A stretch of DNA of 64,000 bases from Halorubrum sp. CBA1229 (GTDB lineage: Archaea > Halobacteriota > Halobacteria > Halobacteriales > Haloferacaceae), in NCBI RefSeq assembly GCF_003721435.2, contig NZ_CP054585.1:2914001-2978000 (forward strand), written 5' to 3'. Positions 970 through 62,923 of this stretch are shown here, piece after piece. The translations under genes and the position numbers were made by a program. The notes under the pieces were generated by a model that had not been told where the DNA came from, did not search any database, and was given only the letters and a program-made list of their open reading frames with translations. Every line of letters begins with the position of its first letter. The first letter of the stretch is position 1.

Positions 970-1503
970 TCACCCGCCCGACGGCGGCGGCGCCGCCGGG
1001 AGACGTCGTTGGTCCGCGGTCGTCGCCGAGGCGGCTGGAACGGCGTCGCTCGCCCGACTAACGTCCGGTCCCTCGGTGGTCGGGAGGCCTTCGCTATAGA
1101 GCCGATCGGATGTGTTCTGGCTCGTTTCGTTGGTCGTGGTATCGTCGCTGTCGGTGGTGTTGTCGGTCGTGGTGTTGTCGGTCGTGGTGTTGTCGGTCGT
1201 GGTGTTGTCGGTCGTGGTGTTGTCGGTCGTGGTGTTGTCGGTCGTGGTGTTGTCGGTCGTGGTGTTGTCGGTCGTGGTGTTGTCGGTCGCTGTGATGTTG
1301 TCCGTCTCGTCGGAATCCACTACATTCGTCCCGCTTATCGTTACTTCCGAACTGCCGGAGAAGTTGCCGGCAGTAAACGTCACGTCAACGTCACCGCTGT
1401 CGCTGAACGCGGCATACGTCACGGCGCCGCTGGAGACCGCGGCTATCAGTAGCGCCATACTCACCGCCAGCACGGCGGTCTTTCGAAGTGGCGTGTTATG
1501 CAT
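970..1503 (-). CDS. Secreted SipW-type protein with (TTTDN)n sequon-rich repeat stalk
   Basis: The 177-aa product starts MHNTPLRKTAVL and has a hydrophobic signal ending in TYAAFSD, then DVDVTFTAGNF. This matches the TasA/CalY pattern of an Ala-Phe-Asp junction followed by F..G. After about 70 residues the sequence becomes eight TTTDN repeats, each placing NTT in an N-glycosylation sequon, and ends in a Ser/Pro/Ala-rich tail. The ATG overlaps the stop of the signal peptidase gene by 8 bp (ATGCATAA), so the two are translationally coupled. The frame also opens at 1581, but those residues lie inside the peptidase gene and lack a signal-like start. Likely a glycosylated surface stalk or linker; the function is inferred. 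Confidence 0.75.
   Translation of the reverse strand: MHNTPLRKTAVLAVSMALLIAAVSSGAVTYAAFSDSGDVDVTFTAGNFSGSSEVTISGTNVVDSDETDNITATDNTTTDNTTTDNTTTDNTTTDNTTTDNTTTDNTTTDNTTTDNTTDSDDTTTNETSQNTSDRLYSEGLPTTEGPDVSRASDAVPAASATTADQRRLPAAPPPSGG
1156..1290 (-). repeat. 15-bp tandem repeat x 9 inside the sequon-repeat gene
   Basis: Nine consecutive copies of a 15-bp unit (plus strand GGTGTTGTCGGTCGT) lie in frame within the gene at 970-1503 and encode the TTTDN repeats on the minus strand. The copies are essentially identical, the last differing by one base. The unit is a multiple of three, so copy-number change would lengthen or shorten the stalk without a frameshift. Confidence 0.95.
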
Positions 1504-2515
1504 CGTCCGCCTCCGATTCCGCGTGATCCGCGCTCTCGATTCCGGCGTGCTCAGGAGACGGCATCGACGATCCGTCGGCACGCATCGCCGGGGTCGATCC
1601 AGTCACGGCCACAGGGTCCAGGGCGGGTACCGAGCCAGTATCTGACGTGGTCTCCGACTCCGGTGCGTCATCACTCCCGGCGGCGTAGTACATAGAGCCG
1701 ACGAGTAACGCCCCGATTCCCGACCCGAAGGCGACGGCGAACGACCACGCGGCTTGGATGTTGTAGACGACCCAGCCGGCGTATACCGCGGTCCCCGTGA
1801 GAACGCCCAGCGAGAGACGGAGGTCCGTTCGCGTGAGCGCGATGCCCCCCCCATCTTCCGCTTCCTCGTCGGCCGCTTCGGACGCCGCCCTCTGACCGTT
1901 CGTCCCGGCGACGGTCGGAGTGTGGACGGGTCGCCGAACGGCCGGCTCCGGCCCGGCGACGTCCGGGTCTGCAGCGGTGACCGCTTTCGTCTCGTCGCTC
2001 CCCTCGTCGTCCGATTCCGAACCGTCGACGACTATCGAGTACACCTCCGAGAGCAGCAGCAGGGCGAACGGAACGACGACGAGAGCGACGAATCCGGTGG
2101 TCGTGCTCCCGAACTGAATGACGTACCCGATGTACGGGATCGTGAACACGACTTGGCCTCTGACTTCCGAGGCCGCGACCGGCGAGGCGTCCGGGTCGTC
2201 GTTCGCGTCACCCTGGGTTACGAACGAGCGCTCGCCGCCGTCCTCGTTGATACCGACAACGCGATGGGTGGTCGGGGTATCCGAGCCGCTCCGGAGGTAG
2301 GTGATAACGTCCCGTTCCTCGATGTCGGCCGGGTCCACGTCGTCGACGACGACGACGTCGCCCGTGTTGATCGTCGGCTCCATGCTGCCCGACAGCACGA
2401 CGTAGCTCCCCTCGGCCCCGACCACTCCCGGCACCGCGTAGATGACGAACGGGATCACGATAGCGATCAACAGGAGGAGTCCGAGCCAACTGAGCAGCCG
2501 GCGAGTGTCGGGCAT
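1496..2515 (-). CDS. Archaeal signal peptidase I (SipW/Sec11-like) with long C-terminal membrane extension
   Basis: A membrane serine peptidase that removes signal peptides; given its place, probably dedicated to the SipW-type substrates around it. Residues 8-30 are the N-terminal anchor. Catalytic Ser44 lies in SGSMEP, His84 in THRVVGI replaces the bacterial Lys as in archaeal and ER enzymes, and Asp103 lies in QGDAND. A second membrane segment follows near 130-155. After a long acidic linker there are two further hydrophobic segments (about 235-285) that ordinary archaeal SPases lack. I chose ATG 2515 because GGAGGTGA sits 8 bases upstream; GTG 2527 is an alternative. It is flanked by substrates on both sides. 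Confidence 0.9.
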   Translation of the reverse strand: MPDTRRLLSWLGLLLLIAIVIPFVIYAVPGVVGAEGSYVVLSGSMEPTINTGDVVVVDDVDPADIEERDVITYLRSGSDTPTTHRVVGINEDGGERSFVTQGDANDDPDASPVAASEVRGQVVFTIPYIGYVIQFGSTTTGFVALVVVPFALLLLSEVYSIVVDGSESDDEGSDETKAVTAADPDVAGPEPAVRRPVHTPTVAGTNGQRAASEAADEEAEDGGGIALTRTDLRLSLGVLTGTAVYAGWVVYNIQAAWSFAVAFGSGIGALLVGSMYYAAGSDDAPESETTSDTGSVPALDPVAVTGSTPAMRADGSSMPSPEHAGIESADHAESEADDA

Positions 2516-2605
2516 GTCACCACTCACCTCCGTCTGGTGACCTCTCGCTGGCTATCTCGCGCCCTGTCCCGGGGCGACTCGTTTCGTATCGTCTCGATTT
2601 CCCCG

Positions 2606-3564: not shown

Positions 3565-4275
3565 TCAGCACTGGGTGACATCGAACTGGATATCGAACTC
3601 GACCGTGTCGCCCTGTGCCGCGTTGATGTCGGCCTGATCCGGGGGGAAGGACCACCCGAACGTGACCGTCACCGCGTCCTCGGCGCCGAGACAGCTCGCC
3701 CCGGGCGTGAGCGGCGAGGCGTCGAGAGCGACGCCGTCCTCGAGGGCGGCGGCGACGTCTCCGAGCGTTCCGCTCGCGCCCGAATCGACGAGCCGTTCGC
3801 CCGGATCGTGCTCGGCGTTGTCGGACCCCAACGCTCCGACGTCGAAGAGGCCGGTGTCGTACCAGACCGCGATGTCGATGTACTCCTGTATCGACGTCGG
3901 CTCTCCGCCGTCCCTCAGCGAGACCGTCAATTCCGGTTCGACCGCCGGCCCGTCTCCCCCGCCCGAACCGTCGGTGACGATCCGGAGTCGGACGCTGAGC
4001 GATCCGGAATCTCCGGGAAGCACGTTGCCGAGGGAGATCGCCGGGCCCGACGGCTCGGTGCTCACGGTACCGGCGGTCGTGTCCGTCAGCGTCGCTCCGT
4101 TGTACGTCTCCCGCCAATCGATGACGCAGTCCTCGATTGCCTCCGTCTGAAGCTGCATCGTGTCGGTATACGCCCGACTCCCCTCGGTCATCAGCGCCAA
4201 TCCTCCGAGCGATGCGGCGCTCCCGCCGGTGATACCGGCGAGCAGCGTACGACGTGAGATGCGATCGAGAGTCAT
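3565..4275 (-). CDS. SipW-type secreted protein, TasA/CalY-like, 236 aa
   Basis: N-terminus MTLDRISRRTLLAG with twin Arg and a Gly/Ser/Ala-rich hydrophobic core, then SRAYTDT at the expected cleavage junction. The core matches the cluster's paralogues: VLPGDSGSLSVRL, IAVWYDTG, a GTLGDVAAALEDGVALD helix, and VTFGW.FPP..ADI..AQGDTVEFDIQF..TQC at the C-terminus. It has no inserted domain and is the most compact complete version of the fold. Stop is at 3565. The ATG at 4275 is 20 bp downstream of a tRNA-like T-arm/acceptor element. Expected to be exported and trimmed by the neighbouring peptidase; structural role inferred. Confidence 0.8.
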   Translation of the reverse strand: MTLDRISRRTLLAGITGGSAASLGGLALMTEGSRAYTDTMQLQTEAIEDCVIDWRETYNGATLTDTTAGTVSTEPSGPAISLGNVLPGDSGSLSVRLRIVTDGSGGGDGPAVEPELTVSLRDGGEPTSIQEYIDIAVWYDTGLFDVGALGSDNAEHDPGERLVDSGASGTLGDVAAALEDGVALDASPLTPGASCLGAEDAVTVTFGWSFPPDQADINAAQGDTVEFDIQFDVTQC

Positions 4276-4295
4276 GTGAGCTCTGTGTTGGAGAC

Positions 4296-4368
4296 ACCCA
4301 CCGTCGGAATCGAACCGACATGCACGGATCCGGTGAGTCCGGATGGGCCGGCATGCACCTGCGTGGGC
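4296..4368 (-). promoter_or_regulatory. tRNA-like leader element A (T-arm plus acceptor-like stem)
   Basis: On the minus strand GTCGG-TTCGATT-CCGAC (4303-4319) is a perfect 5-bp/7-nt T-arm with the canonical TTCGA loop. It is followed without a gap by GGTGGGT (4296-4302), which can pair with GCCCAC at 4363-4368 (five Watson-Crick pairs and one G-U). Between the two halves lies a hairpin ATCCG...CGGAT (stem near 4329-4345). The start codon of the 236-aa subunit is 20 bases downstream. Its T-stem differs from the other three copies but still pairs. Confidence 0.6.
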
Positions 4369-4374
4369 TGGGGG

Positions 4375-4405
4375 GATCGACCGACTGCTGTCGCTCCGGT
4401 CGATC
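4375..4405 (-). terminator. Inverted repeat just after the 546-aa subunit gene
   Basis: GATCGACC (4375-4382) and GGTCGATC (4398-4405) form an 8-bp stem with a 15-nt loop, 3 bases past the TAA of the 546-aa subunit gene. It lies just ahead of tRNA-like element A. It could be a terminator, or a stem protecting the 3' end of a processed upstream mRNA. Confidence 0.4.
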
Positions 4406-4408
4406 GCC

Positions 4409-6049
4409 TTAGGTCTGACCGCTCCCGTCGTTGTGGCGGCACTGCTCGGTGTAGAACCCGAGATCGAAGGTCACCGAATCCCCTTGGACCTCGTTGCCGA
4501 CGTCGGCCGGGAGCCACCACTCGAAGCCGACGTACGCCGTCGTCGAGTTCGGGAAGCACTGGCGGTCGTCCGTCTCCCCGTTATCGCCGTTGTCTCCACC
4601 GCTCCCGTTGACGGGACAGCAGACATCGATGTTACTGATATCCTGATCAGTGGGTGTTGTCAGCGTTACCTCATCTAGAATGACCGGCTCATCCCACACG
4701 TAGATATTCTCGCCTTCGTTCCCGCCTTTCACGCTGACGACGCGCACGGGGTTGCCCGTCGAGATGGTGATCTCGTTGGGGGTGCCGTTGTCGTCGGTGT
4801 CGGTGAGAGTGTTTACAGTCAGGTCCGCACAGCTATTGTAATCCGTATTTTCCTCCAACATTCCCGCCTCGATATCCGTCCCAACGAGATCGATACCGAG
4901 TAGCTTCTCGTAATCCGCACACTGGAGGTTTCTCGGTTTCTTATTGGTGTATGAGGCGAATGGATCATCTTGAGTGCTATTATACACGCTCACCGACGCA
5001 TCGTCATACGCCGAGATCGTCGGGGTCTCACCGCTTTCTCCACCAGTTTCTTCGTCCGCTGGAGACACCGGTTCCGCATCGAGAGGGAACATGCCGTTTT
5101 CAAGCGCGGTGAGAACGCTCCGCAGCGTTCCCCCTAGTGGGATATACTTCTCCTCAGTTTGGAGATAGTTGTCTCCCTCGCTCCTATCACCGTCCTTATC
5201 CTCGTAATCCTCACCGTACACACCGTCAGTGCCGGTATCGTACCAGAAGGCGGTTCGAATCTCGTCGAGGATTTCGACTGTCTCCTCGTCGTCCTTCGCC
5301 ACGATTTCGCCGTCATCGTTGAGCGTCTGATCCTCGTCGTCCTCCTCCATCTCCGGTTCGGTCAACCCGTTCTCGCTGGCGCTAACGAGCTCGCCCGTCA
5401 GCCAGACGTAGCCGGGATTGTCACACAGGTGGAAGCTGAACGTCACCTCGCCGAAGTCGCCCGGCTTGGCGTCGCTGATGTTGACGAGGGGATCGCCAGC
5501 CTTCGTGGTCTGTGGGTTCGGTCCGTCGCCGATGGTGACTCCCCCGTCGACGTTTGCACCGGTCCGGTACGGATGGCTCAACACCCCATCGCCACCGTCG
5601 AGATCCGCGGGGATGTCACAGATGTCGCTATCGTTATCGAACCGGACTTTCTCACCGTCGTAATCCTCCGAGGCTGGGTCGTCCGTTAGCGTGTCCGGGA
5701 ACGCCTCGATGGCCGTGTTCGCGAGGAACCCGCGTGCATCTTCCATGTGCTTAACGAACACGGACTGCTCCGCTTCCGGCGCTGCAGCCGGGAACCCGAT
5801 GTCGTAATCGCCGTCTGGTTCCATACTGACGTCGACTTCATCGGATTCGTCGTCAGACCAGTCGGAGTAGTGTTCGGTCCAGTCGACTTTCAGGTCGAGC
5901 TCGCCCGCCGTGATCGTGTTGTTCTCGAACGATTCCGTGTCGCTGAAGTAGGCACTCGTGCCGAGCCCGGCACCGGCGGACGCGACGCCGACCGCTCCGA
6001 GGCTCGCGAGCGCCTTCCGTCGTGAGAGTTTGAAGCTTTTGTTACTCAT
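4409..6049 (-). CDS. SipW-type secreted subunit with inserted domain, 546 aa
   Basis: Starts MSNKSFKLSRRKALASLG with the SipW-type junction GTSAYFSDTESF..N.ITAGELDL (residues about 32-52). Core motifs: ISDAKPGDFGEVTFSFHLCDNP (about 195-215), IRTAFWYDTGTDG, a GGTLRSVLTALENGMFPLD helix, and a C-terminal FEWWLPADVGNEVQ..SVTFDLGFYTEQCRHND. Between the helix and that C-terminal strand sits an extra, visibly AT-richer segment of about 150 residues (roughly 4590-5060) with its own cysteines and a beta-rich look (LTDTDDNGTPNEITIS). I do not recognise that insert. The start is only 2 bp after the upstream gene's stop, so it is coupled to the 253-aa subunit and has no tRNA-like leader of its own. Confidence 0.8.
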   Translation of the reverse strand: MSNKSFKLSRRKALASLGAVGVASAGAGLGTSAYFSDTESFENNTITAGELDLKVDWTEHYSDWSDDESDEVDVSMEPDGDYDIGFPAAAPEAEQSVFVKHMEDARGFLANTAIEAFPDTLTDDPASEDYDGEKVRFDNDSDICDIPADLDGGDGVLSHPYRTGANVDGGVTIGDGPNPQTTKAGDPLVNISDAKPGDFGEVTFSFHLCDNPGYVWLTGELVSASENGLTEPEMEEDDEDQTLNDDGEIVAKDDEETVEILDEIRTAFWYDTGTDGVYGEDYEDKDGDRSEGDNYLQTEEKYIPLGGTLRSVLTALENGMFPLDAEPVSPADEETGGESGETPTISAYDDASVSVYNSTQDDPFASYTNKKPRNLQCADYEKLLGIDLVGTDIEAGMLEENTDYNSCADLTVNTLTDTDDNGTPNEITISTGNPVRVVSVKGGNEGENIYVWDEPVILDEVTLTTPTDQDISNIDVCCPVNGSGGDNGDNGETDDRQCFPNSTTAYVGFEWWLPADVGNEVQGDSVTFDLGFYTEQCRHNDGSGQT

Positions 6050-6051
6050 TA

Positions 6052-6813
6052 TTAGTTTCCGAATTCATCGTTGTGGCGGGCCTGTTCCGCGTAGAACCCG
6101 ACATTCGATTCGTGGGACGCGCCCTGCAGCTCGTTGCCGGCGTCGGGCGAGATCGCGATCTTGATACAGAGCGTGAGGACGTCCCCGGGATCGATCTGGA
6201 CCGGGTCTCCGGAGTCGTCGACGAGCGGCCACCCCGATTGGAGCGCATCGAACAGCGCGGTCAGTCCGACGAACTCCTGACTTTCGTTGGTCACCATGAA
6301 CTCGCCACTGGTATCGTCGTAATTGCCGAACGAGACGATGGCGGTGACGTTCTCGGACTCGCCGAGCGACTCGAAATCGGAGTCGTCAGCGATGTCGCTG
6401 ATCTCGTTCGGATCGATGTCGGCGTCACTACCGTCTTCGTCGGACACCTCCTCGCCCTCGAGTTGGACGAAACCGGGGTTGTGCTCGGTCGTGATGTCCC
6501 AGCACGGGTCGTAGGTGTCTCCCGGTTTCGCGTCCGCGATCGAGAGCGACGTCATGACTTGATTCTCGTCGAGATTGTACCAGTCACCGAGTTCGTCCGG
6601 ACCGATCCCCCCCTGGTCGATGGAACTCGCTGCCTCGTTGAACTCGATATTCACCCCGAACTCGCCCGCCTGAATCGTGTTGTCTGAGAAGTCCTCTTGG
6701 TCGCTGAAGTAGGCGCTCGTGCCGACCCCGGCACCGGCGGACGCGACGCCGACCGCTCCGAGGCTCGCGAGCGCCTTTCGACGCGACAGTTCGAACGCGT
6801 TTTTTTCGCTCAT
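6052..6813 (-). CDS. SipW-type secreted subunit, core-only form, 253 aa
   Basis: MSEKNAFELSRRKALASLG followed by GTSAYFSDQEDF..NTIQAGEFGV: the same signal as the next gene, with near-identical DNA over the signal-peptide codons. The body keeps IADAKPGDTYDPCWDI, a TALFDALQSGWPLVDD helix, and a C-terminal ISPDAGNELQGASHESNVGFYAEQARHND, with no inserted domain. It is very acidic. Stop and the next start are 2 bp apart, giving a two-gene unit with the 546-aa subunit. The leader 6814-6903 carries a T-arm element and a hairpin over the ribosome-binding site. It may be the main polymerising subunit, but that is inference from its simple architecture. Confidence 0.8.
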   Translation of the reverse strand: MSEKNAFELSRRKALASLGAVGVASAGAGVGTSAYFSDQEDFSDNTIQAGEFGVNIEFNEAASSIDQGGIGPDELGDWYNLDENQVMTSLSIADAKPGDTYDPCWDITTEHNPGFVQLEGEEVSDEDGSDADIDPNEISDIADDSDFESLGESENVTAIVSFGNYDDTSGEFMVTNESQEFVGLTALFDALQSGWPLVDDSGDPVQIDPGDVLTLCIKIAISPDAGNELQGASHESNVGFYAEQARHNDEFGN

Positions 6814-6837
6814 GGTCGATCATCCCCCGTGGGGAAG

Positions 6838-6876
6838 TCCCACCGGCGGAGTCGAACCGCCGTACACCATGTGGGA
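6838..6876 (-). promoter_or_regulatory. tRNA-like leader element C (minimal T-arm/acceptor minihelix)
   Basis: Minus strand: TCCCAC (6871-6876) pairs with GTGGGA (6838-6843), enclosing a 9-nt single-stranded part and a T-arm GGCGG-TTCGACT-CCGCC (6845-6861) that abuts the outer stem. The outer pair is U-A here where copies D and E have A-U, a compensatory change that supports real base pairing. Directly after it TCCCC (6831-6835) and GGGGA (6823-6827) form a hairpin that includes the G-rich Shine-Dalgarno region of the 253-aa subunit. Confidence 0.65.
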
Positions 6877-6903
6877 AATGACCGGGGACCGTGCTGTCCG
6901 GGA

Positions 6904-8589
6904 TCAGGTATCCGGAGATGACGGGCCGGTCGGACTGTCGTTGTGGCGGCACTGTTCGGTGTAGAATCCGATATCGAACTCGATAGAATCGCCTTGGACT
7001 TCGTTACCGACATCGGTCGGGAGCCACCACGCGAAGCCGATGTAGCGGGTGAATCCGGGCATGAAGCACTCCTCGAGACCGAGATCATCTAATTGGAGGC
7101 CACCGCCCTGTAGAGCATTGAGGTCATCTGCGAGAGTACTTCGCCTAATCTGCCGCTCACAGAGTGTACCGGTTGCCATATCCCCGAACCCATGATCCGT
7201 TAGATCACCGCTTAAGCTGTATCGGTCAAGTTCAGTACCGCTAAGATCGAATTCTATTAGCTCCGTACCTCCGGTAACAGATCCGAGGAGGCTCCCGGAT
7301 CCCGTGTCACGGATGGTGAGCCCCGTTAGGTCTTCACCGGTTTCGAGTTCGGCCACTTCCATCGTATTTCCGGAGAGCAAGTCGACGGCATGGAGCATGT
7401 TCCCAGCGTCTGTGTATAAGTAGAACTGACCGTTCGACGCGAAGACGTTATCCGCACCACTGATGTTGATATCAACATCCAGTCTGTTTGTCACTACTGG
7501 ATTCTCTGGGTCGGGGATCTCGAACAGATAATCCGAAGTACTCCCTATCCAGAGCGTACCGTCCGTGTCGACTGCTGCTTGAGTAATTTGTCCCAAGCTG
7601 TAGTCGCCTACATCGATGGGTTCGAACGTCAGTGAGTCGCTGTCGTAGTCGTAGACTGCGAGCTCATCCTCACCCTCAGCTACCATGTATACTGTCCCGC
7701 CGTCAGGGGACGTTCCAATATGAGTTCCCGCGAACTTGTCTTTTGAAATAGATGTCAGCTCCGACGTAACTGCGTTACCATTATTTATCGTCACTTCGTA
7801 TAACGTCGGATCTCTCTGTCCTTGGTAGTGATCTGCCAGATATAATTTCTCGTCACAATTGTTTCCGGTGAAGACGTTGTCACCGTCATCGTACCACCAG
7901 ACGGTCTGGATTTTGTTGGCAAGTTCTGGCCACTCACCCTCCGAATAGCTGTGATCACCGATTATCCAAACGTATCCAGGATTATCACAGAGGTGGTAAC
8001 TCAGCGTGAGTTCTCCGAAGTCACCCGGCTTCACGTCGTCCAGACTGACGAGCGGGTTGTTACCTCCATCGCCGTTATTTGTATCGCCGTTGTCAGTACG
8101 ACCAATCCCCGTGGAGTCGCGCTCTAGGTCATCGGGAAGGTCCGCACCGTCCTTACAGGGGTCGAAGAACTCTCCGTTACTGAAGTTGGAGCCCTCAACT
8201 TCCTGCTCCCCATCGTTGTCGGTGTCCGGGAACGCCTCGATCGACGTGTTCGACATGTAGTCGACGAGGTCGTCTTCGTGGACCCAGACCATCGGATCGC
8301 TCGGATCCGGCATCGCGACGTATTCGTCGGACGACTCCGGTTCCGACCTGTGGACGTCGAGACCATCGGTCGGATCGTCGAATCCGTAGATCTGCGGGAA
8401 GTTGTAGTGTTCCTCCCAGTCGACCTTGAGATCGAGTTCACCTGCGGTCAGGCTGTTTCCGTTAAACGATTCCTCGTCGCTGAAGTAGGCACTCGTGCCG
8501 ACTCCAGCCCCGGCGCTCGCGACGCCGATCGCGCCGATACCGGCGAGCGCCCGCCGCCGTGAGATGTTGAGTCCGTTGTTGTCGCTCAT
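6904..8589 (-). CDS. SipW-type secreted subunit with propeller-like inserted domain, 561 aa
   Basis: MSDNNGLNISRRRALAGIG, signal junction GTSAYFSDEESF..NSLTAGELDL (33-54). Core: LDDVKPGDFGELTLSYHLCDNPGY (183-206), VWWYDDGDN (230-238), STLADDLNAL helix (484-493), and FAWWLPTDVGNEVQ.DSIEFDIGFYTEQCRHND (519-551). Residues about 246-477 are an insertion with repeating blade-like strands such as TSPDGGTVYMVAEGEDELAV, AAVDTDGTLWIGSTSDYLFE and GNMLHAVDLLSG, typical of beta-propellers (YVTN/WD-like). The DNA of this insert (about 7158-7854) is visibly AT-richer than the core, suggesting separate acquisition. Preceded by the 90-nt tRNA-like element D. Confidence 0.82.
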   Translation of the reverse strand: MSDNNGLNISRRRALAGIGAIGVASAGAGVGTSAYFSDEESFNGNSLTAGELDLKVDWEEHYNFPQIYGFDDPTDGLDVHRSEPESSDEYVAMPDPSDPMVWVHEDDLVDYMSNTSIEAFPDTDNDGEQEVEGSNFSNGEFFDPCKDGADLPDDLERDSTGIGRTDNGDTNNGDGGNNPLVSLDDVKPGDFGELTLSYHLCDNPGYVWIIGDHSYSEGEWPELANKIQTVWWYDDGDNVFTGNNCDEKLYLADHYQGQRDPTLYEVTINNGNAVTSELTSISKDKFAGTHIGTSPDGGTVYMVAEGEDELAVYDYDSDSLTFEPIDVGDYSLGQITQAAVDTDGTLWIGSTSDYLFEIPDPENPVVTNRLDVDINISGADNVFASNGQFYLYTDAGNMLHAVDLLSGNTMEVAELETGEDLTGLTIRDTGSGSLLGSVTGGTELIEFDLSGTELDRYSLSGDLTDHGFGDMATGTLCERQIRRSTLADDLNALQGGGLQLDDLGLEECFMPGFTRYIGFAWWLPTDVGNEVQGDSIEFDIGFYTEQCRHNDSPTGPSSPDT

Positions 8590-8614
8590 GCGTATTCACT
8601 CCCCTGATGGGGAA

Positions 8615-8704
8615 ACCCACCGGCGGAATCGAACCGCCGTCACGCGGATGAACCGCGTACCGGGCCTCCGGGAGAACCGGAGACGCCGGAGTGCCAGCGT
8701 GGGT
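8615..8704 (-). promoter_or_regulatory. tRNA-like leader element D (90-nt, four-arm cloverleaf-like)
   Basis: Minus-strand order: ACCCAC (8699-8704); a hairpin with a wobble pair at 8685-8698; CTCCG-GTTCTCC-CGGAG with a 7-nt loop (8666-8682), placed like an anticodon arm; ACGCGG...CCGCGT (8642-8658), placed like a long variable arm; a T-arm GGCGG-TTCGATT-CCGCC (8622-8638); then GGTGGGT (8615-8621) closing 6 pairs with ACCCAC. Total 90 nt, the size of a class II tRNA, but the first arm lacks the D-arm consensus and pair 7-66 is mismatched, so I do not call it a tRNA gene. A hairpin over the ribosome-binding site follows (8600-8613). Confidence 0.65.
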
Positions 8705-8709
8705 GATCG

Positions 8710-10209
8710 TCAGTCGGCGGTCCCGTTTGACGGGAGCCCGTTGTCGTCTTGGTAGGTCCCGTTGAACGGCTCCGCCGGCGGGTCGTCGTTGTGCCGGCTC
8801 TGGAGCGCGTAGAACCCGAGATCGAAGACGGCCGAGTCGGTCTGGATCTCGTTGCCGACGTCTGTCGGGACCTCCCACTCGAAGCCGAGACAGTGAGTCA
8901 TCGCGCCCGCGAACGGTTCGCGTTCTTCGCTAGACCGGTTCCCGTCGAGGGCGATCCCGTCCTCTAGGGCGTCCATGGCGTCGGCGAGGGTGCCTTCCAA
9001 GATGACCTCCTCGCCGCCGGTGATCGTCTGCCCGACCTGGGCGAATACCTGGTCGATCGCGTCCTCGGCGCTCGTACCGCCGGCGACGACGAAGGTGTTG
9101 GAGTCGTCGTCCTGATCGCCGGTGGTGAGTCTGTTGAGGAACTGCTGGTTCGCTCCTGCGACGCCGATCGCGTAGAGTTCGATGTCGTCGTCGAGATCGT
9201 TGGCGGCGCTCAAAGCACTATCACTGTTGTCCGGAGAGCCATCAGTGAAGACGACCATGATCCGATCGTGGCCCCCGGTACAGTTGGCGAGATCGTCGCC
9301 GGCATCGGATATCCCGGAGCTCATGTTCGTGCTTCCGTTGGAGCCCAATCCAGTGAGATCGGACCACGCGTCCGCCACGCTGTTCACGACGTCCGAGCCT
9401 CCGGAGAACGTCGTCGCACCGACCTCGTTGTCATCGTTGGCGCCCAGAATGGTGTTCGCGAGGTCGTTAGCCGCGTCCTCGACTGTGCCGATGTCGCCAC
9501 CGATCGACCCGGACGTGTCGAGGACGAGTTGGACACACGATGGAACCGATGTCGTGTCGTCATCGCCCCCGTCGAGCACGTTGTTACAGTTCTCGTCGTA
9601 CCAGAGCGTGGTTTGGATGTTATCCGCGAGTTCTCCGGCACCCTCGCCCGGATCGCCGCCGGTTTCGTCGACGTCCGCCTCGGGCTCCGACTGGCCGTTC
9701 TCGTCGTTCGCCGTCAGCGCTCCGTTCATGTACATCCACGCGGGGTTGTCACAGACGTGGAGGCTGACGGTGACCTCGCCGGAGTCACCGGGCTTCACGT
9801 CGTCGAGTGCGAAGACGGGGATCTCATCGCCGTTGATGAGACCCAGATCCGGCGCACAGAGATCCGTGTTCTGGACCTCGTCCGCCCACATATCTTCCGT
9901 ATTGTCCGGCGTCTCGCCGATCAGGTACGTCCCGTCCTCGATCTCCTGCACGTCGAACGGCTCGCCCGGCCCGTCTGCGCTGTACCAGCTGTCCACCTCA
10001 CTGAGGCGTCCCGGGCCGCCAGCGTACGTGGCTTTGTAGTCGAGTTTGAGGTCGAGCTCGCCGGCCGTCAGCGAGTTGTCGTCGAACGATTCCTCGTCGC
10101 TGAAGTAGGCACTCGTGCCGATTCCGGCGCCAGCGCTGGCGACGCCGATCGCTCCGATACCGGCGAGCGCCCGCCGCCGAGACAGCTCGAGTCCGTTGTT
10201 GTCGCTCAT
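8710..10209 (-). CDS. SipW-type secreted subunit with inserted von Willebrand A domain, 499 aa
   Basis: MSDNNGLELSRRRALAGIG with junction GTSAYFSDEESF (32-42) and LTAGELDLKLDY. Core: LDDVKPGDSGEVTVSLHVCDNPAW (135-158), IQTTLWYDENCNNVLDGG (198-215), GTLADAMDALEDGIALDG helix (406-423), FEWEVPTDVGNEIQ..SAVFDLGFYALQSRHND (443-475). Residues about 225-397 are a complete vWA domain: VLDTSGS (D231, S233, S235), GSTNMSSG (T294) and VFTDGSPDN (D323) give a full metal-ion-dependent adhesion site. vWA domains bind protein ligands, so this subunit is a candidate adhesin. The insertion lies at the same core position as the propeller-like insert of the next gene. Confidence 0.85.
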   Translation of the reverse strand: MSDNNGLELSRRRALAGIGAIGVASAGAGIGTSAYFSDEESFDDNSLTAGELDLKLDYKATYAGGPGRLSEVDSWYSADGPGEPFDVQEIEDGTYLIGETPDNTEDMWADEVQNTDLCAPDLGLINGDEIPVFALDDVKPGDSGEVTVSLHVCDNPAWMYMNGALTANDENGQSEPEADVDETGGDPGEGAGELADNIQTTLWYDENCNNVLDGGDDDTTSVPSCVQLVLDTSGSIGGDIGTVEDAANDLANTILGANDDNEVGATTFSGGSDVVNSVADAWSDLTGLGSNGSTNMSSGISDAGDDLANCTGGHDRIMVVFTDGSPDNSDSALSAANDLDDDIELYAIGVAGANQQFLNRLTTGDQDDDSNTFVVAGGTSAEDAIDQVFAQVGQTITGGEEVILEGTLADAMDALEDGIALDGNRSSEEREPFAGAMTHCLGFEWEVPTDVGNEIQTDSAVFDLGFYALQSRHNDDPPAEPFNGTYQDDNGLPSNGTAD

Positions 10210-10218
10210 GCGTGTTCA

Positions 10219-10233
10219 CCCCCCCAAGGGGGG
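10219..10233 (-). promoter_or_regulatory. C-run/G-run hairpin covering the ribosome-binding site of the vWA subunit
   Basis: On the minus strand CCCCCC, then TT, then GGGGGGG forms a 6-bp stem with a 2-nt loop. The G-run is the only candidate Shine-Dalgarno sequence for ATG 10209, so the hairpin would hide it. Homopolymer runs of this kind are also prone to length changes. Confidence 0.55.
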
Positions 10234-10235
10234 AA

Positions 10236-10278
10236 ACCCACCGGCGGAGTCGAACCGCCGTAACGCACCTGAGTGGGT
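10236..10278 (-). promoter_or_regulatory. tRNA-like leader element E (minimal T-arm/acceptor minihelix)
   Basis: Minus strand: ACCCAC (10273-10278) pairs with GTGGGT (10236-10241) around 13 unpaired bases and a T-arm GGCGG-TTCGACT-CCGCC (10243-10259) that directly abuts the outer stem. This matches the minimal coaxial acceptor-plus-T-arm helix of tRNA. It lies between the 475-aa and vWA subunit genes. Confidence 0.65.
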
Positions 10279-10309
10279 GTTTATTAGTAGATCTAAGCGA
10301 TCTGTTACA

Positions 10310-11737
10310 TCATCTCCAGTTGATTACAAGTCCGTCAATTCCGGACCATCCACTAGCATCCCCCTCGATGTTGAGAGTTCCATCAATCTCGATGGTGTTT
10401 CCGGCTGAGGAGTCGATCCCCTGAAGCACTAGATACGTCTGTTCAGGTCCAGCGCTGGCAGCGAGTTGGTCGGGGGATACCGAAGTACCGTTCAGTGTGA
10501 GGTTTTTCACCGTGGTCGTGTCGCTGTTCAGGCTTCGTGCACTGATAGCGACGTCAACCGTTTGTGGAATTCCACCGTTCTGCCACTCAGTATCGCTACC
10601 CAGAGCGTTACCGTCTCCCTGACCATCAGTTACATCCGTATCGGATGCAGTCACATCGGTGCCACCTGCCTGCGAACCGAGGACCTCAAGCGAAGCCGTG
10701 TTCGAGTCCACATCGAGTGTTGCCGTGAAATCAACATCCTGATCTGCGGGGAAGTTATCCGAATCGTCATTCGCGTTACCGAACGGGAACGCAGTGTTAC
10801 CGGATGTCGCGTTATGAATCTCAGCTTCCGCACTGCCGGACCCTCCACTACCTTGTATGGACATTCCCAGTGCACGATTACTGTCAAAGGGTGGGTAGAG
10901 GTCGTCTGTCGTTCCAGTTGCGTACGGACTAGTCGGGTTCTCGTTATGGCGTTCCTGTTCCGCGTAGAACCCGAGGTCGAACTCGACCGAATCGGACTGG
11001 ATCACGTTGCCAACCGTGGTCGGCACGTTCCATTCGATACAGATACACGGCCCAGTCTGCGTGTCCGAGTCAGGGCTGGCCGGATATGCGCCGTCATCAG
11101 TCGGCACCCATTCGCCTCCCTCCTCCACGTACCCGTCTAACAGATATCCATACTGAAGTTCCAGAAGGAGATCCGTGAGCGTGTAGTCTTCAGGATTGTT
11201 GAGTTCCCGAACCGTTTCGAAATCTTCCGGACCCGATGGATCGCTGCCCTCGAGATCGTCGGACGGTTCACAGTACGCCACCGTGACCTGGATGTTGTCC
11301 GCGAGTTCGCCGTTGCCAGCGCCGGGGTCACCGCCCGTGTCGTCGACCTCCGCCTCAGGCTCAGTCAGGTCGTTCTCGTACTGTGTGAATCCGGAGCTAC
11401 CCGCCCACAGCCACGCGGGGTTGTCCACGATCTTCGGACAGAACACCAGCTTCCCCGAGTCGCCGGGCTTGACGTCGTTGAGGACGTACTGCGCCGACAC
11501 GCCGCCGTCGTTTTGACCGCTTCCGGTCGTTCCCCCGTCGATCGCCTCCGAGTTTGCGCCCGTCCAGTAATCGACGAAGAGGTCCAGCTCTCCCGCAGTG
11601 AGTGTGTTATCCTCGAAGCTCTCCTCATCGCTGAAGTACGCGCTTGTTCCGACTCCCGCTCCCGCGGACGCGAGGCCCACGGTCCCGAGACCGATCAGTG
11701 CGTTCCGCCGTGACAGCTCGAATTTCTTGTCTGACAT
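10310..11737 (-). CDS. SipW-type secreted subunit with C-terminal beta-rich extension, 475 aa
   Basis: First gene of the minus-strand cluster. MSDKKFELSRRNALIGLG; junction GTSAYFSDEESF..NTLTAGELDLFVDY. Core motifs LNDVKPGDSGKLVF, VDNPAWLW, a YTLTDLLLELQYGYLLD helix, and IEWNVPTTVGNVIQ.DSVEFDLGFYAEQERHN, which ends the common fold at about residue 318. A further 155-residue Ser/Asp/Gly-rich, beta-strand-like domain follows (10310 to about 10785), ending GWSGIDGLVINWR. It could be a cap, anchor or capsule-binding module; I do not recognise it. ATG 11737 is used because upstream frame residues to 11806 overlap the structured leader and are not signal-like. Confidence 0.8.
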   Translation of the reverse strand: MSDKKFELSRRNALIGLGTVGLASAGAGVGTSAYFSDEESFEDNTLTAGELDLFVDYWTGANSEAIDGGTTGSGQNDGGVSAQYVLNDVKPGDSGKLVFCPKIVDNPAWLWAGSSGFTQYENDLTEPEAEVDDTGGDPGAGNGELADNIQVTVAYCEPSDDLEGSDPSGPEDFETVRELNNPEDYTLTDLLLELQYGYLLDGYVEEGGEWVPTDDGAYPASPDSDTQTGPCICIEWNVPTTVGNVIQSDSVEFDLGFYAEQERHNENPTSPYATGTTDDLYPPFDSNRALGMSIQGSGGSGSAEAEIHNATSGNTAFPFGNANDDSDNFPADQDVDFTATLDVDSNTASLEVLGSQAGGTDVTASDTDVTDGQGDGNALGSDTEWQNGGIPQTVDVAISARSLNSDTTTVKNLTLNGTSVSPDQLAASAGPEQTYLVLQGIDSSAGNTIEIDGTLNIEGDASGWSGIDGLVINWR

Positions 11738-26976: not shown

Positions 26977-27894
26977 ATGGACGACGACGTGCTGGAGGGG
27001 CTCGGCTCGCCGCTGGTTCGGGTCGACGCGCCGCCGGAGACGACGGTGGCCGCGAAGGTCGAGTCGCGCAACCCGGGCGGCTCCGCGAAGGACCGCCCGG
27101 CGCGGTACATGGTCGAGGCGGCCGAGGAATCGGGAGAGCTGGAACCGGGGGACGGGATCGTCGAACCCACGTCCGGCAACACCGGCATCGGGCTGGCGAT
27201 GGCCGGCGCGGTGAAGGGGTACGACGTGACGCTCGTGATGCCCGACGGCAAGTCGCTGGAGCGCCGCCGGATCATGCGCGCGTACGGCGCGGAGGTCGAG
27301 CTCGTCGACGGCGACATCTCCGCGGCCAAGGACCGCGCCGACGAGCTCGAGGCCGAGGCGGGGATGGTCCAGCTCCGGCAGTTCGAGAACCCCGCGAACC
27401 CGCGGGCCCACTACGAGACCACCGGCCTGGAGGTCGTCGAGCAGGTCGGCGACCGGACCGTCGACGCGCTCGTCGCCGGCGTCGGGACCGGCGGGACCAT
27501 TTCCGGGATCGGTCGTCGGCTCCGCGAGGAGTTCCCCGACGTCCGGGTCGACGCGGTCGAGCCCAGCGACAACGCCGTCCTCTCCGGCGGGGAGCCCGGA
27601 AACGACGCGTTCCAGGGGATGGGACCGGGCTTCGTCTCGCCGAACCTCGATGTCGACCTCATCGACGAGGTCCACGCGGTCGGCATCGAGGAGGCGGAGG
27701 CCGAGTGCCGGCGGCTCGCCCGCGAGGAGGGGATCCTCGTCGGGCAGTCCTCGGGCGCTTCGAACCTCGCGGCGAAGGACGTCGCCGCGGAGCTCCGGGA
27801 CGCCGGCGCCTACGCCGGCGAGGAGCCCCTCGTCGTCACCGTGTTCTGGGACAGCGGCGAGCGGTACCTCTCGGCCGGCACCTTCGACGAGTAG
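26977..27894 (+). CDS. PLP-dependent cysteine synthase family protein, 305 aa
   Basis: Fold-type II PLP enzyme that makes cysteine from O-acetylserine (or a related activated serine) and sulfide. ESRNPGGSAKDRPA has the PLP-binding Lys; EPTSGNTGIGLAMAG contacts the substrate carboxylate; VAGVGTGGTISGIGR is the phosphate-binding loop; VGQSSGASNLAA is the usual C-terminal PLP-ring contact. ATG 26977 and in-frame GTG 26953 are both possible; I favour ATG. Confidence 0.9.
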   Translation: MDDDVLEGLGSPLVRVDAPPETTVAAKVESRNPGGSAKDRPARYMVEAAEESGELEPGDGIVEPTSGNTGIGLAMAGAVKGYDVTLVMPDGKSLERRRIMRAYGAEVELVDGDISAAKDRADELEAEAGMVQLRQFENPANPRAHYETTGLEVVEQVGDRTVDALVAGVGTGGTISGIGRRLREEFPDVRVDAVEPSDNAVLSGGEPGNDAFQGMGPGFVSPNLDVDLIDEVHAVGIEEAEAECRRLAREEGILVGQSSGASNLAAKDVAAELRDAGAYAGEEPLVVTVFWDSGERYLSAGTFDE

Positions 27895-61760: not shown

Positions 61761-62853
61761 CGCGCCCGCGGACCCCGAGGGCGCCGGCGTCTCGGCCGAG
61801 AGCGCCGAGGGTGAGGGCTTCTTCGAGCGGTACACGACCCGGGCGATCGCCGCCGGCGTGACGGTCGCCACGGTCGTCGCGCTGCTGCTCGCCGGGGCGC
61901 TGTTCCCGGACTCGCTCGCGGGGACGCTCTCGGACGCGCTCACGAGCCGGAACACGCTCGCGTCGGCGCTGCGGCTGTCCGTGCCGATCGCGTTCGCCGC
62001 CCTCGGGGGTATCTTCGCGGAGAAGTCGGGCGTGATCAACATCGGGCTGGAGGGGCTCCTGATCATCTCGGCGTTCAGCGCCATCTACGTCGCCGACCTC
62101 ACCGGCGGTGTCTGGCTCGGCTTCGCCGGCGGAGTGGTCGCGAGCACGCTGCTCGCGGCGCTGTTCGCCGTCGTGACGATCGGGTTCCGCGCGGACCAGA
62201 TCATCGCCGGGCTCGCGGTCTGGCTCATCGCGCTCGGGCTCGCGCCGTTCGCCTCGCAGGTGATCTACGGCAGTCCGAACACGCCGATCGTGGCGACGTC
62301 GCCGTCGATCACGGTGCCGGTGCTCGCCGACATCCCGTTCTTCGGCGCGCTCTTCTCGGCGTCGCCGTCGGTGTACATGCTGTTCGCCGCCGTCTTCGGC
62401 TCGTGGTACGTCTTCGAGCGGACGGCGTTCGGCCGGTGGATCCGCGCTAGCGGCGAGAACCCGAAGGCGCTCGATACCGCCGGTGTGAGCGTTACCCGCG
62501 TCCGGTACGCGGCGGTGCTGATCTCGGGCGTCCTCGCGGGAATGGGCGGCGCGGCGCTGTCGCTCGACCTCGGTCAGTTCACCGGCAACGGCCCGACGAT
62601 GGTCAACGGGAAGGGGTTCATCGCCATCGTCGCGTACCTGTTCGGCAACTACAACCCGGTCGGGGCGTTCCTCTCGACGATGCTGTTCGCGGGGCTGGAC
62701 GCGGTCCAGACCGTGCTCCAGCTCCAGGGGATCGGGATCCCCCGTCAGCTCATCCGGGTCACGCCGTTCGTGGTTGTCATCCTCGTCCTCGCCTTAGTCG
62801 GGCGGACGCGGCTCCCAGAGGCGGCCGGGGAGCACTACGAGACGGAGGAGTGA
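61753..62853 (+). CDS. BMP-type ABC transporter permease, 366 aa
   Basis: AALGGIFAEKSGVINIGLEGLLIISAF is the family hallmark, with GRWIRASGENPKALDTAGVSV and FTGNGPTMVNGKGFIAIVAYLFGNYNPVGA later. Nine or ten helices. GGAGGTGA is 5 bases upstream of ATG 61753 and inside the preceding gene, so translation is coupled. Last gene of the nucleoside importer. Confidence 0.93.
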   Translation: MSDAPADPEGAGVSAESAEGEGFFERYTTRAIAAGVTVATVVALLLAGALFPDSLAGTLSDALTSRNTLASALRLSVPIAFAALGGIFAEKSGVINIGLEGLLIISAFSAIYVADLTGGVWLGFAGGVVASTLLAALFAVVTIGFRADQIIAGLAVWLIALGLAPFASQVIYGSPNTPIVATSPSITVPVLADIPFFGALFSASPSVYMLFAAVFGSWYVFERTAFGRWIRASGENPKALDTAGVSVTRVRYAAVLISGVLAGMGGAALSLDLGQFTGNGPTMVNGKGFIAIVAYLFGNYNPVGAFLSTMLFAGLDAVQTVLQLQGIGIPRQLIRVTPFVVVILVLALVGRTRLPEAAGEHYETEE

Positions 62854-62923
62854 GGCCTCGTCCGGGACGAGAGGAGGGGTGAGGCCTCGTCCGAGGCCGA
62901 CGCGGTCGGCGAAGGCCGGTCGC

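Follow-up and report, generated by a model that had tools for sequence, protein, structure and literature searches.

We suggest that four structured elements in the genome of Halorubrum sp. CBA1229 are probably intercistronic t-elements, at which tRNase Z, most likely together with RNase P, would process the messenger RNA (mRNA) of a secreted-protein operon. They lie in a stretch of 64,000 nucleotides (nt; contig NZ_CP054585.1, positions 2,914,001 to 2,978,000, hereafter the window), and each combines a 6-base pair (bp) acceptor-like stem, a 6-bp T-arm and a GG corresponding to that of the D-loop of transfer RNA (tRNA), 21-28 nt upstream of the ATG of a gene for a SipW-dependent (TasA-type) secreted protein or a relative (E1 to E4; Table 1). 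The t-element was previously known as a maturation signal of 5S ribosomal RNA (rRNA), with a few further copies predicted in one species. What appears to be new is a conserved family which spans genera, is tied to one class of secreted-protein genes, has a defined 6+6 anatomy and finds matches in lactic acid bacteria.

Anatomy and base pairing of the elements

A T-arm/acceptor search pattern matched exactly four times in the window, each time with 0 mismatches and on the minus strand, which is the mRNA strand of the operon, while chance alone would give 0.22 matches at a tolerance of three mismatches and 0/100 shuffles reached four. An earlier note on this DNA, which had placed four such elements in the leaders of the operon, is thereby confirmed. 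The order in each is x-CCCAC, a short GG-bearing stretch, an optional insert, the T-arm GNCGG-TTCGAYT-CCGNC and GTGGG-x', where x and x' form the outermost acceptor pair. The T-arm is closed by an extra pair, which is T-G in E4 (4368..4296) and C-G in the other three copies. On the 3' side of the element lies another small hairpin, weak in the case of E4, and then the start codon. A fifth exact copy, unlinked to these, is found elsewhere in the same genome and is also situated upstream of a SipW-dependent-type gene. At the gathering threshold no Rfam family matched anywhere in the window, and the elements are not among the RF00005 tRNAs of this genome.

Folded singly, the cores have unremarkable energies, E2 excepted (z -1.1 to -4.0), and the structural case therefore rests on covariation. 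Among 60 minimal copies, 96.8% of the cells in the twelve proposed pairs are paired, and both sides have changed in 32 cells, compared to 7.9 in shuffles (0/500) and at most one in slid controls. In a combined set that includes the 5S and Lactobacillaceae copies, changes on both sides occur in 11 of the 12 pairs (61 cells versus 16), with a bias towards the proposed structure, some of the Lactobacillaceae rows having been picked partly by pairing. The paired base changes from which the earlier note judged both stems probably real (A-U versus U-A in the outer pair; GTCGG/CCGAC versus GGCGG/CCGCC in the T-stem) are present, and the covariation among the minimal homologues upholds that judgement.

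The column that decides between the two possible layouts finds its partner on the T-stem side in 30/31 cases and at acceptor position 7 in only 13/31, and the layout is therefore 6+6 rather than the 7+5 of tRNA, the total staying at 12 bp. As such, the pairing of an upstream CCCAC with the GGTGGG that follows the T-arm, as originally described, stands in all but the first G of the latter motif, which partners the base preceding GNCGG, usually C, and belongs to the T-stem and not to the acceptor. At acceptor position 4, with the 5' strand located without regard to pairing, A-T was counted 127 times, G-C 7 times, G-T 18 times and A-C 0 times. The outermost pair x-x' (A-U/U-A) is the weakest, being unpaired in 21/60 sequences. 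Strong covariation of this pair in an early table was discarded, since it is weak once the 5' strand is chosen blind to x, with 25 A-C mismatches; the acceptor is therefore counted as five firm pairs and one weak pair.

The motif CCCAY with GG following 2-4 nt later is found upstream in 120/137 copies, compared to 0 and 4 in control stretches, and we infer that this GG occupies the place of the GG through which the D-loop of tRNA docks on the T-loop. The insert between GG and T-stem varies widely in length, as would be expected for enzymes that read only the acceptor, T-arm and elbow. A related hairpin, CGGCGG-TTCGCGA-CCGCCG, was observed at the expected place in the leaders of MNDD(K/T)IGLSRRKMLVGLG genes (L059, L083, L088, L093, L106, L114, L116); lacking the A of the T-loop, it may be a degenerate or altered t-element copy.

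Relationship to 5S rRNA t-elements and tRNA-like RNAs

A covariance model (R1), trained on the secreted-protein leaders only, matched 43 of the 393 genomes searched from the phylum, all listed as belonging to the same order; under strict filters no copies were found outside Halobacteriales in this sample. Many of the matches sit between 23S and 5S rRNA, ending exactly 2 nt ahead of the Rfam 5S start. Furthermore, both 5S genes of the CBA1229 genome are preceded by a sequence with the same layout, as read by eye (aCTGAC-aca-GG ... GTTCGG-TTCGAGT-CCGAGC-GTCAGc). The resemblance is therefore to the known processing element itself and not merely to tRNA. The t-element upstream of 5S rRNA in Haloferax volcanii, as used in PMC4326828 and PMC4946936, has been reported as a target of both tRNase Z and RNase P and has served to release CRISPR RNAs in vivo (PMC4326828), and the start of the published primer, ACCGATATTGGTATGG, has the same x-CCGAY-nnn-GG layout (PMC4326828). 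On the basis of the 5S matches of the leader model, the layout at the 5S genes of CBA1229 and this primer start, the leader elements are best filed as t-elements lying between protein genes. The likeness to the Haloferax 5S element proposed in the earlier note, which had also recommended a covariance search of haloarchaeal genomes, is supported by the recovery of 5S-adjacent copies by a model built from leaders alone.

Like t-elements, the leader copies have a tRNA-like acceptor stem and a T-arm with T-loop, and they lie directly before the RNA whose 5' end would be created, which for the mRNA copies describes their placement only. The haloarchaeal 5S copies score with the leader-built model and share the 6+6 stems, the T-loop and T74. 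In contrast to the 5S elements, those of the leaders are located between protein genes of SipW/TasA-type operons, have the acceptor CCCAC/GTGGG and often carry long, hairpin-bearing inserts, and the product of their predicted cleavage would be mRNA rather than 5S rRNA. Operons with two tandem 5S genes were observed at L181, L183, L184, L185, L186 and L227, and at the first three of these each tandem 5S gene is preceded by a t-element, again with a 2-nt gap.

The H. volcanii element upstream of 5S rRNA is reportedly the subject of Holzle et al. 2008 and 2012, and the 2012 study is said to have predicted a few more t-elements in that genome, two of which were cut in vitro. Among the papers searched, none was found to describe such elements in mRNA leaders, although the 2012 in silico list may contain a related copy, and tRNA-like elements and tRNase Z are not mentioned in the main text of the Halobacterium and Haloferax processing-site papers.

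With tRNA (RF00005) the elements share the T-loop TTCRANY, 12 bp of acceptor and T-stem, GG at the D-loop position and a pyrimidine at position 74. They differ in having no 7-bp acceptor with 5-bp T-stem, no Rfam match, mostly T/C at N73, and neither a D-arm with conserved stem nor an anticodon arm, in place of which the minimal copies have 8-12 nt. ARAGORN labels E2 (8614-8704) as tRNA-Arg because its insert contains two extra hairpins; this was rejected as a pseudo-call, since the other copies lack these hairpins and the stems follow the 6+6 layout. The tRNA-like domain of transfer-messenger RNA likewise combines an acceptor and T-arm with a D-loop that has no stem and can contact the T-loop through its GG, but the present elements are intercistronic, and ARAGORN found no tag-encoding mRNA part. 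Cleavages of mRNA by RNase P at tRNA-like folds are known from bacterial operons as individual sites. The cleavage predicted here would similarly involve a tRNA enzyme acting in an intercistronic stretch, but the sites form a conserved family sharing one consensus, present in both archaea and Lactobacillaceae.

Distribution among haloarchaea and Lactobacillaceae

When one mismatch at most was tolerated, 173/392 Halobacteriales genomes contained the pattern, while a reversed control pattern gave a single match in the table. A scan of 84,980 species yielded 104 exactly matching stretches, all haloarchaeal except for four, from Pediococcus, a Spirochaetes tRNA-Thr, one Rikenella assembly and one betaproteobacterial assembly. 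A SipW/TasA-type N-terminus is encoded within 330 nt downstream of 119 of the 132 haloarchaeal copies with enough sequence (~90%), compared to 51 for control stretches 1.5 kb upstream, which often contain neighbouring paralogues, and several of the remaining copies are located upstream of signal peptidase or related secreted-protein genes. The converse does not hold, a full element being found close upstream of 117/310 SipW/TasA-type N-termini in the loci examined, some mis-called starts counted. In a strict test, a co-directional gene ends within 250 nt upstream of 76/98 element genes. The gap from element to start codon is tightly kept in haloarchaea, at mostly 20-27 nt, whereas that to the upstream stop varies. 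Further haloarchaeal model matches (L167, L192, L195, L236, L238, L245) lie upstream of neither 5S nor typical TasA-type genes, one of them preceding an S-layer-like protein gene (MNGKRFTAVIAALALVLSAFAAP), and these are possible further mRNA t-elements.

The 6+6 architecture was also matched in 24/201 Lactobacillaceae genomes, with four copies in a Pediococcus genome, while the matches of a second model (R2) in 398 sampled Bacillota genomes were confined to Pediococcus save for a single weak one. The Lactobacillaceae consensus, x-CCCAC-tctGGtgac-nG-CAGCGG-TTCGATT-CCGCTG-GTGGG-x', is matched by no Rfam family; its copies show abundant compensatory differences and almost always have T at N74. 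Most begin 3-26 nt past a stop codon, and several have no close downstream gene. Among the Lactobacillaceae loci L203-L220 and L248-L264 the elements sometimes occur in tandem, and some copies adjoin phage-like genes, including ArpU-like regulators and a tape-measure-like gene.

Predicted processing and the operon context

Counted as in tRNA, the cut is predicted behind N73. Of 95 leaders, 87 have T and 6 have C at the following base, N74, which is T or C in 30/30 real tRNAs of the CBA1229 genome. In 90/95 cases, compared to 14.7 in shuffles, the leader that would remain after the cut opens with a hairpin of 4 bp or more, and a Shine-Dalgarno (SD)-like motif is found in or beside this hairpin in 81/95. 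In five other genomes (L015, L019, L023, L024, L025; MN(L/T/A)DRRRLLG family) the ATG lies only 6 nt past the element, and the predicted cleavage would therefore give a nearly leaderless mRNA, which haloarchaea translate well.

We suggest that the elements mimic the upper half of a tRNA, with a 12-bp coaxial acceptor/T-arm, a T-loop and a GG standing for that of the D-loop, and that the polycistronic mRNA is cut at these sites into single-gene pieces by the enzymes that recognise them, namely tRNase Z and probably RNase P. The tRNase Z cut would fall one nucleotide beyond the outermost pair, ahead of U74. The downstream mRNA would then begin with a short hairpin, usually holding its SD-like sequence, and the upstream mRNA would finish in a compact tRNA-like 3' end, so that paralogous SipW/TasA-type subunits made from one transcript would become separate in their expression and stability. 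Several observations fit this proposal poorly. At the discriminator position, N73, the leaders mostly have T/C and tRNAs A/G, a difference that is unexplained, and processing as such does not explain the near-restriction to one gene class. Furthermore, the outermost pair is often A-C, and the acceptor CCCAC/GTGGG is less variable than tRNA processing alone requires, although the search pattern selected for that sequence.

The constancy of the acceptor, which is greater than pairing alone needs, the tightly kept distance to the start codon and the frequent SD-like motifs in or beside the hairpin are also consistent with translational control, in which the tRNA-like fold or a bound protein, together with the adjacent hairpin, would hide the SD sequence and regulate each cistron without cleavage. 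We nevertheless consider this unlikely, given that the element is also found ahead of 5S rRNA, an untranslated RNA, that some copies lie 6 nt before the ATG without a second hairpin, and that the Lactobacillaceae copies are close to the upstream stop, several of them without a near downstream gene. This last arrangement would rather suit a role in the upstream transcript, whose 3' end the element would make or protect as an exonuclease-resistant tRNA-like end, any downstream effect being secondary; the haloarchaeal distance is, however, fixed to the downstream start and variable to the upstream stop, making this a distinctly improbable primary function. Both roles are compatible with cleavage and could coexist with it. 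The suggestion, raised in the earlier note as recombination sites, that the copies are DNA recombination sites or tRNA-gene remnants serving as an integration (att) site, prompted by their resemblance to tRNA 3' halves, which are common integration sites, is unsupported and can be set aside as highly improbable, as it is contradicted by the covariation, the fixed orientation and start-codon distance, the compensatory changes and the presence of the element at 5S genes, and as the five exact matches in the genome are all leaders, other places needing three mismatches.

More broadly, and more tentatively than for the processing of this operon, the 6+6 t-element may represent an unregistered RNA class that serves as a portable cut signal in the polycistronic mRNAs of haloarchaea and Lactobacillaceae, with tRNase Z and RNase P as mRNA-segmenting enzymes and with the haloarchaeal signal tied to SipW/TasA-type secretion, where it could set subunit ratios. 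If cleavage is confirmed, mRNA processing would be a conserved function of the tRNA maturation enzymes, directed by a signal that can be predicted, and archaeal TasA-type subunits would rely on these enzymes for their expression. Other tRNase Z targets could then be tested for by covariance model and standard RNA sequencing.

The products of the cluster are SipW-dependent (TasA/camelysin-like) secreted proteins, with TIGR04088 in six, and a SipW-resembling archaeal signal peptidase. As it encodes both SipW-cognate signal peptides and a signal peptidase of SipW-like type, the cluster can be identified as a SipW/TasA-type secretion operon, within which the elements are found before those internal genes whose upstream spacing accommodates a leader.

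Table 1. Elements, predicted post-cleavage leaders and genes of the operon (window positions; R1, leader-trained covariance model)
Feature	Positions	Strand	Description	Basis or context
First SipW-dependent gene	10310..11737	-	First of operon, no element upstream	TIGR04088
t-element E1	10236..10278	-	Minimal: ACCCAC-tcaGGtgcgtta-CGGCGG-TTCGACT-CCGCCG-GTGGGT	Before gene 8710-10209; R1 58 bits, E 8.6e-9
Leader after E1	10210..10234	-	UCCCCCC-UU-GGGGGG hairpin, SD-like GGGGGGGUGA, ATG at 10209	Predicted cut behind N73 (10235)
Secreted-protein gene	8710..10209	-	SipW-dependent, VWA domain	TIGR04088, PF00092
t-element E2	8615..8704	-	59-nt insert with two extra hairpins	Before gene 6904-8589; R1, fold z -4.0
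Leader after E2	8590..8613	-	UCCCC-AUCA-GGGGA hairpin, SD-like GGGGAGUGA, ATG at 8589	Predicted cut behind N73 (8614)
Secreted-protein gene	6904..8589	-	SipW-dependent (TasA-type)	TIGR04088
t-element E3	6838..6876	-	Minimal: TCCCAC-atGGtgta-CGGCGG-TTCGACT-CCGCCG-GTGGGA	Before gene 6052-6813; R1 57.9 bits, E 9.3e-9
Leader after E3	6814..6836	-	UCCCC-AC-GGGGGA hairpin, SD-like GGGGGAUGAUC, ATG at 6813	Predicted cut behind N73 (6837)
Secreted-protein gene	6052..6813	-	SipW-dependent (TasA-type)	TIGR04088
Secreted-protein gene	4409..6049	-	SipW-dependent; start 2 nt past preceding stop; no element	TIGR04088
t-element E4	4296..4368	-	One extra hairpin in a 42-nt insert; T-stem TGTCGG/CCGACG	Before gene 3565-4275; exact pattern, weak R1 match
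Leader after E4	4276..4294	-	Weaker CUC/GAG hairpin, ATG at 4275	Predicted cut behind N73 (4295)
Secreted-protein gene	3565..4275	-	No family match; similar, twin-arginine-like N-terminus; gene follows E4	Sequence
Signal peptidase I gene	1496..2527	-	Archaeal/SipW-like	TIGR02228 1.3e-35

Beside the signal peptidase gene, a further SipW-dependent protein gene (970-1581) encodes a long TTDN repeat run (DNTTTDNTTT...), with a tandem repeat in the DNA. ARAGORN also calls a tRNA-Leu(aag) at 27296-27387 and a tRNA-Arg(gcg) at 62787-62880 of the window, which are probably false, since the whole-genome RF00005 search lists no tRNA there. Outside the window, approximately ten tRNA genes, several of them low-scoring, are packed into 2 kb of the CBA1229 genome (G000:C1:314068-316061), in an array reminiscent of the tRNA clusters found in mobile elements or viruses.

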